From an uncultured candidatus Porisulfidus sp. (lineage in GTDB: Bacteria > Pseudomonadota > Gammaproteobacteria > Poriferisulfidales > Poriferisulfidaceae), in assembly GCA_958431155.1 (NCBI GenBank), contig OY288106.1:967161-1031160 (forward strand): a stretch of DNA of 64,000 nucleotides, written 5' to 3'. This document shows, one piece after another, positions 8,621 through 15,045 of this stretch (position 1 is the stretch's first letter; every line of letters starts with the position of its first letter). The translations under genes were made by a program, and so were the position numbers. The notes beneath the pieces are model-generated. The model had not been told where the DNA came from, did no database searches, and saw only the letters and a list, made by a program, of their open reading frames with translations.

Positions 8621-9796
8621 ATGGACGACGACAAACTCAAGAGCGCCAAAGTCAAGATCCTGGTTGTCGATGACGAAGTGGATCTGGAGCAACTCATGCT
8701 GCAACAAATGCGCAGAGAGATCCGGCACGGGCGCTATACCTTCGAATTCGCGCACAACGGCGCGGAAGCTCTGGAACGCCTGCGCGAGGATAATGACTTC
8801 GACATCGTACTGTCCGACATCAACATGCCGGTGATGGACGGATTGACGATGCTGGAGCAAATTCCGGACATCAACCCCAACATCCGCGCCGTGATGGTTT
8901 CCGCCTATGGCGACATGGACAACATCCGGACCGCGATGAATCGCGGTGCGTTTGATTTCGTAACCAAGCCGATTGACTTCGCGGATCTAAAGGTGACGGT
9001 GGAACGTACCATCGAAAACCTGATGCTGTGGCGCGAGGCATTGAGTTCGCGCGACAAGCTCGTCGCAGTCCAGCACGAGTTGAGCGTGGCGCAATCGATG
9101 CAACAGAACATTCTTCCGCACACCTTTCCGCACACCGAGAATTGCGACGTCTACGCCCATATGATCGCGGCCCGCTCCGTGGGCGGCGATTTTTACGACA
9201 TTTACGATCTTGGCAATGGTCGACTGGGCATCGTCATTGCCGACGTGTCGGACAAGGGTGTCCCTGCTGCCATGTTCATGATGGCCAGCCGTACGCTGTT
9301 GAAAGCCTGCGCGTTTTGCTCCGTCTCTCCCTCCCAGGTTCTGGGACAGGTGAACCAGATGCTGTCCGAGAACAACGACGCCATGACCTTCGTGACCCTG
9401 CTGTACGGCATTTACGACCCTGGAACAAGGGATTTCGTCTATTCGAACGCCGGTCACAACTTCCCCATTGTCGTCCGCCCGGGGCCATCGGTGGGACTGC
9501 TGGAATCTACCGGCGGGATTGCGCTCGGCATCGAAGGAGATTTCCCGTTCCGGGAAGAAACCACTACCCTTGAGCCAGGCTCTATGGTCGTGCTGTATAC
9601 CGATGGAGTGTCAGAGGCGGAAAAGGAAGATGGCGAAATGTTCGAGATGGATAGATTTTCCCAGATTTTCAAAGAGAATTCATTCGAAAGCGCCGAACAG
9701 GCCACGGAGGCAGTATTCAATGGTGTCAAGGATTTCGTCGGAGACAGCCCGCAATCCGACGACATCACTTGCCTCATCTTAAAGATCCCGGAATAA
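8621..9796 (+). CDS. response regulator with PP2C-type (RsbU/SpoIIE) phosphatase output
   Basis: A 391-residue fusion. Residues 12-130 form a receiver domain (ILVVDDE, phospho-acceptor Asp 66 in SDINMPVMDG, Lys in VTKPID). A short helix with QHELSVAQSMQQNILP links it to a PPM/SpoIIE-type Ser/Thr phosphatase domain (SVGGDFYD, VIADVSDKGVPAAMFM, NAGHNFP, SDDITCLIL) that carries the metal-binding aspartates. RsbU-type phosphatases dephosphorylate STAS anti-sigma antagonists. Three STAS genes and an RsbW-like kinase lie within 6 kb, so this is the likely effector of the local partner-switching pathway. Its phosphodonor is probably the histidine kinase three genes downstream. Confidence 0.92.
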   Translation: MDDDKLKSAKVKILVVDDEVDLEQLMLQQMRREIRHGRYTFEFAHNGAEALERLREDNDFDIVLSDINMPVMDGLTMLEQIPDINPNIRAVMVSAYGDMDNIRTAMNRGAFDFVTKPIDFADLKVTVERTIENLMLWREALSSRDKLVAVQHELSVAQSMQQNILPHTFPHTENCDVYAHMIAARSVGGDFYDIYDLGNGRLGIVIADVSDKGVPAAMFMMASRTLLKACAFCSVSPSQVLGQVNQMLSENNDAMTFVTLLYGIYDPGTRDFVYSNAGHNFPIVVRPGPSVGLLESTGGIALGIEGDFPFREETTTLEPGSMVVLYTDGVSEAEKEDGEMFEMDRFSQIFKENSFESAEQATEAVFNGVKDFVGDSPQSDDITCLILKIPE

Positions 9797-10230
9797 TGGG
9801 CAAGGTCGAGAAAATGGAGGCCTCCCGCACTCTGATCCTTTCCAACCGGATCGAGGAAATTCGGACGATCGAGAATTTTTTGACCGAATTCTCCGAACAA
9901 CAAAATTTGCCCCCCGAAGTGCTGTTTCAAATCCAACTCTCGCTGGAGGAGATCTTTACCAATGTCGTCAGTTACGGGTACGATGACGACGCGGAGCACG
10001 AGATCGAGATCGTGCTTTCTAAAAACGAGGGGACCGTGACGGTCGAGATGGTAGACGACGGCCGCCCCTTTGACCCGTTGCAGGACGCGCCGGAAGTGGA
10101 TGCGGAAAGCGCGCTTGGAGAACGCAGGATCGGCGGTTTGGGAATTGCATTGACAAAGACCATGATGACGGACTTGCGCTACCACCGGGACGATGGCCGA
10201 AATCATCTGGTCATGATCAAGGATGTCTAG
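9796..10230 (+). CDS. RsbW-like anti-sigma factor / serine kinase (HATPase_c_2)
   Basis: A 144-residue GHKL ATPase domain without a dimerisation domain. The N box is LSLEEIFTNVVSYGY, the G1 region is VDDGRPFDP and the G2 region is GGLGIALTKTM. In partner-switching systems such proteins phosphorylate STAS antagonists and bind a sigma factor or another target. The ATG overlaps the stop of the phosphatase gene by one base, which decides the start over an upstream in-frame TTG at 9769. No sigma factor lies beside it, so its target is unknown. Confidence 0.88.
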   Translation: MGKVEKMEASRTLILSNRIEEIRTIENFLTEFSEQQNLPPEVLFQIQLSLEEIFTNVVSYGYDDDAEHEIEIVLSKNEGTVTVEMVDDGRPFDPLQDAPEVDAESALGERRIGGLGIALTKTMMTDLRYHRDDGRNHLVMIKDV

Positions 10231-11443
10231 CGACGTGCCGACCTTGCGAGGGCTTCTCCCCAAATACATGTCCGTAGTTCTCGGAACTGCGATGCTGGCT
10301 AATACGGCATTCGGCGAGAACGAGCAGGGATCACTCGGTGCATCTGCCACGCCCGGAGTCTTCGAGGACCGGATCCTGTTCGGGCAATCCGCCGCCTTTG
10401 AAGGCCCGGCCAAGGAACTCGGCAGAAGCATGCAGGCTGGCATCCTGGCCGCATTCAAGGAAATCAACGACCAAGGAGGCATCCATGGGCGCCGCCTTGA
10501 GCTACGGTCCCTGAATGATTCCTACGAACCGGATGCGGCGATCGCCAATACCCGGCAACTAGTCAAGGACGGTGTCTTTGCGCTGATCGGCGCAGTCGGC
10601 ACCCCGACTTCCCGGGCAGTGGTGCCGCTCACGAAAGAATATCGCATCCCCTACATGGCTCCCATGACTGGGGCGGAATACTTGCGGGACAGTGCGCATC
10701 ACACTATCATCAACCTTCGCGCTTCGTACTTTCAGGAAACTGAAGAGATGGTGCAGCGGCTGACCGTCGACCTCGGAATCAAGCGCATCGCCATTCTTTA
10801 CCAGGACGATTCATTTGGCCGCGCTGGCATGCAGGGCGTTCTTCGCGCCCTTGAGAAGCGCAAACTTTTCACTATCGGCGCTGCAGTGTTCTCTCGCAAC
10901 ACCACTGCGGTCAAGACGGCGCTTCTGGATCTTCGAGCGGTCGAACCGGAGGCTGTAATTATCGTCGGCCCCTACGAACCAACTGCGACATTCATCAAAT
11001 GGGCGCACCGCCTCGGCATGGATCCCGTCTTTATGACACTGTCCTTTGTCGGCAGCAATGCCTTGGCGGAGGAGTTGGGAGCCGGAGGGGCCGGAGTCCT
11101 GGTCACACAAGTCGTGCCTTTCCCGACAGGCGACACGGTGCCGGTCTCTGCGTCGTACCGCGCCGCACTGAAGGCATACGATCCCTCAATAATCCCTGGG
11201 TTTATTTCGTTTGAGGGCTATTTGGCGGGCCGTCTCGCCATTTATGCCCTGCAACATTGTGGCAAGCAGGTGGAGCGTGATTGCATTCATTCGGCGCTGC
11301 GAAGTGGCAAGGACATTGATCTGGATGGGTTCACCCTGCGATTCAGCAGGCATGACAACCAAGGTTCGGACAGAGTGTTTCTGACGGCTATCGGCCCCGA
11401 TGGTCAATACATGCCACTCACTACCTTGCCCCCTCGGCTATAA
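10223..11443 (+). CDS. periplasmic branched-chain-amino-acid-type binding protein (Peripla_BP_6)
   Basis: A 406-residue type I periplasmic binding protein. An N-terminal signal segment ends near residue 32 (SVVLGTAMLANTAFG). The mature part starts with ILFGQSAAFEGPAKELGRSMQAGILAAFKEINDQGGIHGRRLELRS, the LivK/Amt-type opening. No ABC permease or ATPase genes are present. The gene is embedded between signalling genes, overlapping the RsbW-like gene by 8 bases and preceding a kinase by 33. It is therefore likely a ligand sensor for the kinase, as TorT is for TorS. The ligand is unknown. Confidence 0.87.
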   Translation: MSSDVPTLRGLLPKYMSVVLGTAMLANTAFGENEQGSLGASATPGVFEDRILFGQSAAFEGPAKELGRSMQAGILAAFKEINDQGGIHGRRLELRSLNDSYEPDAAIANTRQLVKDGVFALIGAVGTPTSRAVVPLTKEYRIPYMAPMTGAEYLRDSAHHTIINLRASYFQETEEMVQRLTVDLGIKRIAILYQDDSFGRAGMQGVLRALEKRKLFTIGAAVFSRNTTAVKTALLDLRAVEPEAVIIVGPYEPTATFIKWAHRLGMDPVFMTLSFVGSNALAEELGAGGAGVLVTQVVPFPTGDTVPVSASYRAALKAYDPSIIPGFISFEGYLAGRLAIYALQHCGKQVERDCIHSALRSGKDIDLDGFTLRFSRHDNQGSDRVFLTAIGPDGQYMPLTTLPPRL

Positions 11444-11476
11444 AACCGAGGCTCGGTACAACCCGTAAAGTCAAAA

Positions 11477-13714
11477 ATGTTTCGCGGATTCCCGAAAATC
11501 TGGAACCAGATCTCGACGCAGCTCCATACCAGTTTTGGGGGCGCCGTGGTGTTGATCGTTGCCATTAGCGTCCTCACCATATTCGTTCTCAACCATATTA
11601 GGGCCATTCAGTACAACATCAGTGAAAAGAGCATGCCCGAAATGCAGTCGGCGTTCGCCGTCGCCCAGCAAACGGCCACGCTCGTCGCTGCTGCCCCCCA
11701 GCTCGCGACCGCGACTACGTTAAAGCAGTTTGAGGATGTTGTCGTATCGGTGGGTGCACAAGAAAGGGCTTTCGAAGCCGGGCTGTCGGCCATGTTGGAG
11801 AGGCACGAGGACGATGAAATTACACGGCGGATCCAAGTCGATGGTGCCGGCATTATTCGAGATGTCGAAAAAATAAAGGTACTTGTCCGGGAGCGGTTCG
11901 ATCTCCGTCGGCGCAGTGTCGAACTCAAAGAGGAACTACGCTCGGTGCACGATGAGTTAATGGTGATTCTGACCAACGAAATCGACAATCAGATGTTCTA
12001 CACCATAACGGGTTACTGGTCCCTTGATGGCAAGCAGGTGCCTCGTTCGGAACATTTCTCCGAATCGGAATTCCAGGCTTATCGCCACTTGGTCGAGCTT
12101 CGCGAAGCAGCGACGGTGACCACCCAACTGCTTGCGACAGCATTCACGGTCAGAGACGTTGCGCTGCTGCAACCGTTGCGAGAAGAATTCGATGCAACGG
12201 TCGGTCTCGCCAGTCGCTCTCTTGACTCCCTCTCAAAACATCCTGTGCATCGCGAGTTGTCCGAGTCTTTTTTGGATCTGCTCTCGATCGGCCGCCGGGA
12301 AGGCAACGGCTTTGATCTCCATGATCGAGAACTCGCCGTCGAGGACGAATTATCCTTCCTGCTCCACAACAGCCAGACCTTGGGAGTGGATATCGTGGCA
12401 ATGGTGGAGGACATTGTGGGCGAATACAGTCTGACTGCGCTGGAGATGGCCGAAAAAGCCACCGAGGTTACCAAGACGAGTTCAACGCTGTTGCTCATCA
12501 TCAACATTGTCAGTATCACCGGCGCGATCCTGATCGGATGGCTCTTCGTGGAACGGCGCCTGATCCGGCGTCTGGCCATTGTTTCTCGACAGATACAGCG
12601 CATCGCCGCCGGCAATCTGGAAATCCCCATTGAAGTGTCCGGCCGTGACGAGATTGGGGAATTGGCCAAGGCGCTTGAAGTGTTCCGGCAGAACGCACTG
12701 GAAGTGCAGCGTCTTAGCCTCGTCGAGCAGCTTGCCGACGAACTGAAAGAGATGTACCAAGACCTGGAGCAGGCGAATGAAAAACTGAAGAGCGCGCAAG
12801 ACCAGATCGTGATGCAGGAAAAGCTCGCTGCACTCGGTCAGTTGACAGCGGGAGTCGCGCACGAAATCAAGAACCCCATGAATTTCATTATGAACTTCGC
12901 CCAGGTTTCGAAAGACCTGCTGGAAGAATTGCTGGAAGAAGTGGCCAAGAACAAGCCGGGCGCGGAAGCCGAAGAGGAATACGATGCGGAGCTGGTCGAC
13001 GAAATTGCCGGAGACCTGACCGGGAATCTGGAACGCATCCACGAGCACGGCACGCGCGCCAATCGAATCGTGATGGACATGCTGAAGATGGGTCGGCACG
13101 ATTCCGGAGACTGGCAGGAGGCCGATATCGGCGTATTGCTAAACCAGCATGCCATGCTTGCGTTCCACAGCGCCCGCGCCACCGATCCGGACTTCCAGTT
13201 GGACATCCAGGAAGACTACGCGCCGGATGTCGACAAGATCCTGGTCAAACCCCAAGATCTTGGCCGGGTGTTCCTGAATCTGGTGACCAATGCGTGCTAC
13301 GCAACGGATGAAAAGCGGAAAGCCCTAGTAGCAGAAGGCGGTAGTACAGGGGCTTATCAGCCAACACTCCACCTAAGCACACAGTTAGTTGGAGACATTC
13401 TCGAAGTTCACGTTCGCGACAATGGCGATGGCATCCCCGAATCCGCGCTGAAGGAAATTTTCAACCCGTTCTTCACCACGAAGCCACCGGACAAGGGTAC
13501 GGGTCTCGGATTGTCGTTGTCCGGCGACATTGTTCGAGAACATGGCGGGGAGTTCCGCGTGGATACGAAAGAGGGTGAATATACCGACATGATTGTCTGT
13601 CTGCCACTCAAGCCTCCGGAAAGTCTGAACGAAACTCTGGAGGGAACCGAAGATGGCGCGCCGGAAGCCTCGGCGGACACCACGAAAGAGGACGCTTCTC
13701 AGGAAAGCGTCTAG
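11477..13714 (+). CDS. membrane sensor histidine kinase with long periplasmic helical domain
   Basis: A 745-residue kinase. Transmembrane segments lie near residues 18-40 and 335-357 and flank about 290 mostly helical periplasmic residues. A HAMP domain follows (IPIEVSGRDEIGELAKAL), then a coiled coil. The HisKA domain has His 462 in VAHEIKNPMN and an unusually acidic insertion in the dimerisation helices. The HATPase domain has VRDNGDGIPE, FFTTKPPDKGTGLGLS. No receiver domain is attached, so the receiver-PP2C protein upstream is the probable partner. The stop (TAG) interlocks with the stop of the convergent STAS gene in the palindrome CTAG at 13711-13714. Confidence 0.92.
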   Translation: MFRGFPKIWNQISTQLHTSFGGAVVLIVAISVLTIFVLNHIRAIQYNISEKSMPEMQSAFAVAQQTATLVAAAPQLATATTLKQFEDVVVSVGAQERAFEAGLSAMLERHEDDEITRRIQVDGAGIIRDVEKIKVLVRERFDLRRRSVELKEELRSVHDELMVILTNEIDNQMFYTITGYWSLDGKQVPRSEHFSESEFQAYRHLVELREAATVTTQLLATAFTVRDVALLQPLREEFDATVGLASRSLDSLSKHPVHRELSESFLDLLSIGRREGNGFDLHDRELAVEDELSFLLHNSQTLGVDIVAMVEDIVGEYSLTALEMAEKATEVTKTSSTLLLIINIVSITGAILIGWLFVERRLIRRLAIVSRQIQRIAAGNLEIPIEVSGRDEIGELAKALEVFRQNALEVQRLSLVEQLADELKEMYQDLEQANEKLKSAQDQIVMQEKLAALGQLTAGVAHEIKNPMNFIMNFAQVSKDLLEELLEEVAKNKPGAEAEEEYDAELVDEIAGDLTGNLERIHEHGTRANRIVMDMLKMGRHDSGDWQEADIGVLLNQHAMLAFHSARATDPDFQLDIQEDYAPDVDKILVKPQDLGRVFLNLVTNACYATDEKRKALVAEGGSTGAYQPTLHLSTQLVGDILEVHVRDNGDGIPESALKEIFNPFFTTKPPDKGTGLGLSLSGDIVREHGGEFRVDTKEGEYTDMIVCLPLKPPESLNETLEGTEDGAPEASADTTKEDASQESV

Positions 13715-14067
13715 CCTGTCACTGCGGAGACTGCCTCAGAAGGAGACTCGTAGACATCAATGACTTTGTCGAAACCGGCGGTCTTAACCATAGAACTCAC
13801 TGTTTCCGACAAAGAGCATATTGAGAATTTTCTACCTTTGGCATGAAGTATGCTTGCGATGATCAAAATTACACGCAATCCAGCACTGCTGATATAGGTC
13901 AGGGTTTCTAGATCCAAGATTACAGCGCCACCCTCGTAAGCCTTGACGCTTTGGTCAAGCCCGGCCTGGAACTCTTCCGCATTCAGGCCATTGATGTGAC
14001 CCGCCACATTTATCATGAGTGCGCTTTCGGTCTGGTGAACCTGAAGCTCAAAATGATGATCAGAAAT
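13711..14067 (-). CDS. STAS-domain anti-sigma factor antagonist, first copy (apparent ATT start)
   Basis: A 118-residue STAS protein. The SpoIIAA/RsbV phosphorylation loop is YISSAGLRVILI, preceded by ILDLETL. The first in-frame ATG at 14016 would remove the first strand. Homology to the second copy (ISxxxFEL versus ISETQFEL) extends 17 codons upstream to ATT at 14065-14067, which has AGGAG seven bases upstream. No ATG, GTG or TTG is available at that position, so AUU initiation is inferred. The protein is probably the substrate of the RsbW-like kinase and PP2C phosphatase encoded by the facing operon. Confidence 0.85.
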   Translation of the reverse strand: MSDHHFELQVHQTESALMINVAGHINGLNAEEFQAGLDQSVKAYEGGAVILDLETLTYISSAGLRVILIIASILHAKGRKFSICSLSETVSSMVKTAGFDKVIDVYESPSEAVSAVTG

Positions 14068-14171
14068 GGTGTCACTCCTCGCGAGAACTATTTTGAGTCA
14101 TAGTATACGGCTTCCGAAAACACAGGGAGGATCGCCGATCGAGTGAGAAACGAGAACCCGCCGCGCAACAC

Positions 14172-14534
14172 TTACCGCGTCACCGCGTCAATAGCCGAGG
14201 GACGGGACATGTAGACATCGATAATGTTGTCAAAGCCGGTAGTCTGGATGATTTCCAAGACAGAACTGGGCAAGGAGCAGAGTGCAAATCTCCTGCCCCG
14301 GCGACTCAATTCCTCGGCAACAAGCAGAATTGAGCGTAACCCCGCACTGCTGATGTAGGACAGGTCCTCAAGATCCAGAACGATGGCAGAACCGCCGTAT
14401 CCCTGAGTTTCTTGCTCCAGGCCGCCTCGAAATTCACGCGTGTTGATGCCGTCGACACGACCCACCACACTGATGACAAGTGTGCGTTCATGCTCTTCGG
14501 TCCTCAACTCGAACTGAGTCTCTGAAATCGCCAT
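14172..14534 (-). CDS. STAS-domain anti-sigma factor antagonist, second copy
   Basis: A 120-residue STAS protein with the same layout as its neighbours: ISETQFEL at the start, IVLDLEDLSYISSAGLRSILL around the phosphorylatable serine, and TTGFDNIIDVY at the C-terminal helix. It starts with a normal ATG two codons before the position where the neighbours have ATT, but no clear Shine-Dalgarno sequence precedes it. It is separated from the first copy by 104 bases. The three copies differ by many substitutions, so the duplications are old rather than recent. Confidence 0.9.
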   Translation of the reverse strand: MAISETQFELRTEEHERTLVISVVGRVDGINTREFRGGLEQETQGYGGSAIVLDLEDLSYISSAGLRSILLVAEELSRRGRRFALCSLPSSVLEIIQTTGFDNIIDVYMSRPSAIDAVTR

Positions 14535-14628
14535 GCGCCAGTGGAAGAATCAGATTTGAAAATATAGTACACCAAACGCCTCGGCACGGTCCAGCGGCCG
14601 GTCGGGCAGAAAAATATCCAAAATCTAT

Positions 14629-14988
14629 CTAGCCAGCTGTCGCCACGACCGCCACGGAGCGAGACTCGTGTATGTCGATAATCTTATCGAAACCAGTAAT
14701 CTGAATAATCTCCATAATGGGGTCAGGCAACGAACACATAGCGAACTTTATCTGTTTGCTCTTGAGAGTTTTTGCGATAAGCAAAATGGAGCGCAACCCG
14801 GCACTACTGATGTAGTGGAGGTTCTCAAGATCCAGAACGATGGCTTGACTGTCATTAGAACTTTCGGACTTCTGATCTAGGTTTTCTTGAAACTCCTGCG
14901 CGTTGACGCCGTCGATGCGGCCCACCACGCTGATCACAAGTGCCCCCTGAAGCTCTTCAGTCTGTAGCTCAAACTGATGGTCGGAAAT
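14629..14988 (-). CDS. STAS-domain anti-sigma factor antagonist, third copy (apparent ATT start)
   Basis: A 119-residue STAS protein with IVLDLENLHYISSAGLRSILL and ITGFDKIIDIHES. The first conventional start in frame is GTG at 14937, which would drop the first strand. The conserved ISDHQFEL segment reads upstream to ATT at 14986-14988, with GGAG seven bases before it, the same spacing as in the first copy. ATC and ACG immediately upstream are alternatives with poorer spacing. A sigma-70-like promoter lies at 15018-15045. The role is inferred from the family and from the facing RsbU/RsbW-like genes. Confidence 0.85.
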   Translation of the reverse strand: MSDHQFELQTEELQGALVISVVGRIDGVNAQEFQENLDQKSESSNDSQAIVLDLENLHYISSAGLRSILLIAKTLKSKQIKFAMCSLPDPIMEIIQITGFDKIIDIHESRSVAVVATAG

Positions 14989-15017
14989 GATCGTTCTCCA
15001 AAAACGGACAGGGCGCT

Positions 15018-15045
15018 ATTATAACAATTGAATACGGTTTACCAA
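15018..15045 (-). promoter_or_regulatory. candidate promoter of the STAS cluster
   Basis: On the minus strand TTGGTA and a perfect TATAAT are separated by 16 bases. The predicted start lies about 20 bases before the ATT start region of the third STAS copy. Pattern match only. Confidence 0.5.

Follow-up and report, generated by a model that had tools for sequence, protein, structure and literature searches.

Probable AUU start codons in two paralogous STAS genes of a sponge-symbiont partner switch

Conserved AUU start codons outside infC are, to our knowledge, confined to a handful of genes. Gene callers accept only ATG, GTG and TTG starts and are therefore expected to truncate STAS proteins that begin at AUU. 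The infC and pcnB genes of E. coli and cvfC1 of S. aureus start with AUU, and S. aureus ccpN starts with AUA (PMC13009471, PMC5472188). In S. aureus reporters, initiation at AUU reaches about 10% of the level seen with AUG (PMC13009471). A non-canonical infC start is the usual signature of IF3 self-control, and IF3 also represses initiation at the GTC start codon of Streptomyces sigR, so that there is less of the sigma factor than of its antagonist (PMC5472188). Start codons also matter in partner-switching systems: in Listeria, rsbW is translated less when it starts with ATT, and SigB activity changes (PMC13068326), and work with RsbV and RsbW of B. subtilis indicates that such switches respond sharply to the STAS:kinase ratio (PMC8073009). 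AUU starts are thus already known, as is a sigma switch controlled by IF3, and the STAS genes c1 and c3 described here would be new members. Our search of open papers for STAS genes with an ATT start returned nothing relevant.

The window, by which we mean the whole 64,000-nucleotide stretch of DNA that was analyzed, belongs to a genome of 1.59 Mb from the genus Candidatus Porisulfidus, which oxidises sulfur in sponges. It carries three STAS genes in series on the minus strand, in the order c3, c2, c1 (Table 1). Direct reading of the sequence gives ATT (14988-14986) as the c3 start codon, followed by TCC GAC CAT CAG TTT GAG CTA (SDHQFEL), and the frame ends at TAG (14631-14629). The N-terminal peptide predicted from the AUU start is (M)SDHQFELQTEELQGALVISVVGR. 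The spacer between GGAG and ATT is AACGATC (14995-14989) in c3 and TGACACC in c1, where the codons after ATT are TCT GAT CAT CAT and the protein begins SDHHFEL. An earlier note on this DNA had reported GGAG, seven bases, ATT and SDHQFEL in the third STAS copy, and its coordinates and letters are correct. In both c1 and c3, in-frame ATG, GTG and TTG codons are absent from the upstream in-frame stop to codon 17. The c2 gene opens with ATG GCG ATT, so that ATT persists as its third codon, and no Shine-Dalgarno match (GGAG, GAGG or AGGA) was found 5' of its ATG.

Table 1. Positions of the partner-switch genes and of the c3 and c1 initiation signals in the window.
Feature	Position	Strand	Basis
Response regulator receiver and SpoIIE-type phosphatase fusion (RsbU-type)	8621..9796	+	Pfam
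RsbW-type serine kinase (HATPase_c_2), likely partner of the STAS proteins	9769..10230	+	Pfam 2.4e-28
Periplasmic ligand-binding protein (Peripla_BP_6), probable sensor partner	10223..11443	+	Pfam
HAMP sensor histidine kinase, TorS-type sensor domain, transcribed convergently to the STAS genes	11477..13714	+	Pfam
STAS gene c1, start ATT 14067-14065	13711..14067	-	Pfam STAS 1.9e-17, five ATT orthologues
Shine-Dalgarno GGAG of c1 (inside GAGGAG), 7 nt 5' of ATT	14075..14078	-	
STAS gene c2, ATG start	14172..14534	-	Pfam, direct reading
STAS gene c3, 119 codons and stop	14629..14988	-	Pfam STAS 4.2e-21, five ATT orthologues, AlphaFold pLDDT 92
GTG, alternative c3 start, rejected (codon 17 after ATT)	14935..14937	-	Missing in other four species
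Shine-Dalgarno GGAG of c3, 7 nt 5' of ATT	14996..14999	-	Direct reading
Promoter-like TTGGTA-16-TATAAT with extended -10 TG, adjoining the c3 leader	15018..15045	-	

The STAS domain (PF01740) spans the whole c3 protein, and Foldseek matched its predicted structure to SpoIIAA and RsbV (E ~1e-9, TM 0.75-0.83). The phosphorylatable Ser of the conserved SSAGL loop was found in every row of the STAS alignment. These proteins resemble RsbV, SpoIIAA and TM1442 in fold and over nearly the full length of the sequence, but differ in forming a paralogue triplet, in carrying AUU in two of its three members, and in that no sigma factor was identified here.

Five Candidatus Porisulfidus genomes, including that of the window's species (G000), contain both c3 and c1; a sixth genome of the genus (76% complete) has one other STAS gene. 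ATT occupies the aligned start in all ten orthologues (5/5 for c3 and 5/5 for c1). Its presence in separately assembled genomes excludes a sequencing error, which the earlier note had called unlikely. Invariance of ATT alone is weak support, because about half of the remaining conserved Ile columns are equally invariant (7 of 14 for c3, 3 of 5 for c1). The GGAG-N6-8-ATT arrangement is not rare either, with 19 occurrences in the window versus ~25 expected by chance; it stands out because in 10/10 orthologues it coincides precisely with the boundary of conserved coding sequence. Codons 2-17 of c3 have 1, 0 and 7 variable sites at codon positions 1, 2 and 3 across the five species, and therefore evolve as coding sequence. 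GGAG is kept in every c3 orthologue at a spacing of 6-7 nt, and across c3 and c1 together it stands 6-7 nt from ATT in 9/10. The identical seven-base layout that the earlier note saw in the first and third copies is present in the window but is not general, since three of the five c3 orthologues have a spacing of 6, and G004 c1 (L016) has lost GGAG while retaining ATT. Given this loss, translation of G004 c1 may be very weak.

Like infC, pcnB and sigR, the two genes have no usable ATG, GTG or TTG where the coding region begins, have a start codon that is conserved across species, and place a correctly spaced Shine-Dalgarno sequence before a near-cognate codon (in nine of ten orthologues). We consider it very likely from these sequence features that translation of c3 and c1 begins at AUU.

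A scan of public genomes recovered STAS genes ~58-64% identical from other sponge-associated bacteria. At the homologous position, ATT is found in L048 and L049 and TTG in L102 and L103, each with GGAG 6-8 nt 5'. In L053, which is labelled Dadabacteria, an in-frame stop is followed immediately by TTG at this position, and L011, of the same genus, has ATG there, in both cases again with GGAG 6-8 nt 5'. A second STAS paralogue from the same gammaproteobacterial family again carries ATT (L106, spacing 8; L109, spacing 7). In c2 and most Dadabacteria STAS genes, ATG lies two codons upstream of the position. The earlier suggestion that related STAS genes be surveyed for AUU was thus rewarded, both within the genus and in two more lineages from other sponge Gammaproteobacteria. 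On the protein tree, ATT falls on four lineages (c3, c1, G020/G021 a and G022/G023 b), and the well-supported branches require at least two start-codon changes. The second AUU in a diverged paralogue, which had been taken as an independent occurrence, is real, but its independence is not proven because c1 and c3 are paralogues, and AUU may either have been inherited from a common ancestor, with losses in some lineages, or have arisen repeatedly. In a class-wide search of 369 genomes, all STAS matches were distant.

The reading that we favor, and regard as fairly probable in its entirety, is that translation of c3 and c1 from AUU is low and IF3-dependent, such that the STAS antagonists are held below the kinase. 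According to this model, c3 and c1 would be RsbV/SpoIIAA-type STAS proteins translated from AUU, and a short leader (~25 nt, based on the promoter-like site) would present GGAG 6-7 nt 5' of that codon. Ordinary fMet-tRNA with its CAU anticodon would read AUU through an imperfect match, and IF3 would reject much of this initiation, making STAS protein levels low and IF3-dependent; c2 would instead use AUG without a good Shine-Dalgarno sequence. Low dosage would keep the antagonists below the nearby RsbW-type kinase, which is presumed to be in excess, and therefore the switch would stay off until the phosphatase acts. Signals would pass from the TorS-type histidine kinase to the response regulator-SpoIIE phosphatase, then to the STAS proteins and finally to the kinase. 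The component of this model that concerns low c1 and c3 dosage with IF3 sensitivity is drawn by analogy, and we rate it somewhat better than even.

Several described systems inform the analogy. As in sigR, a component of a sigma/anti-sigma switch has a near-cognate start that is conserved in the genus, but in sigR this component is the sigma factor itself, its start codon is GUC and experiments established the control by IF3, whereas here it is an anti-anti-sigma-type STAS protein with AUU and IF3 enters by analogy. The genes share with infC, pcnB and cvfC1 a conserved chromosomal AUU start with a Shine-Dalgarno sequence and, again by analogy, low initiation; they differ in gene family and in that two paralogues of one switch carry AUU. 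The Listeria rsbW mutants with ATG changed to ATT or ATA, in which rsbW dosage and output were altered (PMC13068326), also place such a start in a partner-switching gene. Those, however, are selected mutants of the kinase, whereas AUU is the conserved state of the antagonist here.

The AUU start probably limits the amount of the two STAS proteins and makes their synthesis depend on IF3. AUU is found in two paralogues of one signalling switch and recurs at the homologous site of STAS genes in other symbionts. A broader proposal is that AUU is a control device that one clade of sponge-symbiont STAS proteins has retained and that couples the partner switch to IF3, such that a drop in IF3 activity would raise c1 and c3, but not c2, and flip the switch without a phosphatase signal; we view this as unlikely. 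The natural series of AUU, UUG and AUG at one homologous position offers a way to ask whether rare starts serve as dosage control.

The main rival to the IF3 and dosage reading is that the AUU start is a neutral relic, in which an ancestral AUG was lost, a strong Shine-Dalgarno sequence compensates and IF3 has no regulatory use. This would fit with relatives that carry AUU, UUG or AUG at the position while the Shine-Dalgarno sequence is unchanged, and with c2, which has AUG yet lacks a Shine-Dalgarno sequence. We nevertheless find it somewhat unlikely, because all five species have kept AUU in each paralogue, and it also occurs in two more STAS lineages, even though one base change would give AUG, and because changes from AUG to AUU are very rare (1 of 61,358; PMC5622118).

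A different objection is that translation begins at another non-canonical codon upstream, with ATT read as an internal Ile. ATC and ACG, which had been put forward earlier as alternatives, are in frame just upstream of the c3 ATT in G000, and ATG occupies the position of the ACG in Dadabacteria. Each of the two is lost in at least one species, however: the codons before the c3 ATT read ACG ATC, CCG ACC, CCA ACC or ACG ATA across the genus, with ATC replaced by ACC or ATA and ACG by CCG or CCA. The corresponding codons before the c1 ATT are GAC ACC, AGG ATC, AGG ACC or GAT ACC. In addition, ATC and ACG are only 1-4 nt from GGAG, which is too close, and the in-frame stop of L053 lies directly 5' of the TTG at the ATT position. 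The promoter-like sequence upstream of c3 is present in 5/5 orthologues, though such a site was found once versus 0.9 expected in shuffles, and it implies a c3 leader of ~25 nt, which would leave no room for an upstream start. We consider an upstream non-canonical start very unlikely.

Initiation at GTG 14937 (or, in c1, at the ATG of codon 17), which would yield a short STAS protein and leave AUU untranslated or a chance occurrence, is extremely improbable: this GTG is the first canonical in-frame codon of c3 in the window and the c1 ATG is common to four of the five species, but the GTG is found in G000 only, the earliest in-frame ATG, GTG or TTG of G004 c3 is codon 51, G004 c1 lacks the codon-17 ATG, the first 16 c3 codons show the variation pattern of a coding region, and a GTG start would remove residues 6-13, the first STAS strand in the AlphaFold prediction (pLDDT 92), which therefore needs the AUU start. 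Evidence for this GTG, named earlier as what would overturn the AUU assignment, was sought and not found, and the expectation that the shorter protein would lack its first strand agrees with the fold prediction.

The AUU start of c3 was also evaluated against its own genome. We screened 384 kb of this genome against 400 kb of G001, of which about half aligned, and scored 196 conserved genes. Among these, c3 was the one clear case: in the two species alike, conserved coding sequence opens at a shared non-canonical codon preceded by a Shine-Dalgarno sequence, and the codons after ATT differ at neither first nor second positions. The c1 gene was missed because its lower identity fell below the screen's filter, and it was judged by direct alignment. 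Five other codon places passed the coarse filters, but in stretches that look like a neighboring gene's frame or boundary noise. Further genes from the screen that lacked a shared start close to the boundary gave, by eye, the impression of overlap with the adjacent gene or of boundary noise. Genome-wide loose start selection was rejected, with c3 the only convincing case in 196 genes and pcnB using ATG. A variant initiator tRNA was likewise rejected: only one sequence matched tRNA-fMet of E. coli, at 96% identity, and its anticodon is CAT. Nor was a conserved leader hairpin over the Shine-Dalgarno sequence and AUU retained as a candidate; G000 c3 pairs the Shine-Dalgarno sequence with AUUUCC (z -1.65), and the other species differ.

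The infC gene of the genus (G000:C1:213787-214290, L040; orthologues L025-L043) has GGAGG as its Shine-Dalgarno sequence. Judged from this sequence and the alignment, infC appears to start with ATC here, whereas the sister family of the order appears to use ATT; starts of this kind are those expected under IF3 self-control and speak for the reading that we favor. Unlike the AUU-initiated pcnB of E. coli, pcnB of the genus starts with ATG. The G002 pcnB (L131) has one TGA inside the frame, possibly an assembly error because the G002 genome is fragmented (210 contigs).

The RsbW-type kinase and the SpoIIE-type phosphatase are both encoded near the STAS genes. The kinase reading frame was called from TTG (9769), within the last part of the SpoIIE gene. 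The true start is likely the in-frame ATG 9796, which would overlap the SpoIIE stop codon and suggests coupled translation. A histidine kinase adjoins the STAS genes also in L048 (the other gammaproteobacterial family) and L050 (Dadabacteria), and the binding protein is near them in Dadabacteria as well. The combination of sensor kinase and convergent STAS genes (8621-14988 in the window) recurs in L048, L056, L057 and L050, together with parts of the flanking order (binding protein and MMPL transporter in L050). This arrangement suggests that the locus was transferred between symbionts, namely sponge Gammaproteobacteria and MAGs labelled Dadabacteria. In L054, a 6.3 kb Dadabacteria sequence, the STAS N-terminal codons ATG GTC ATT CAA AAC AAT CAA GTT AAG occur at two places, which likely reflects a duplication.
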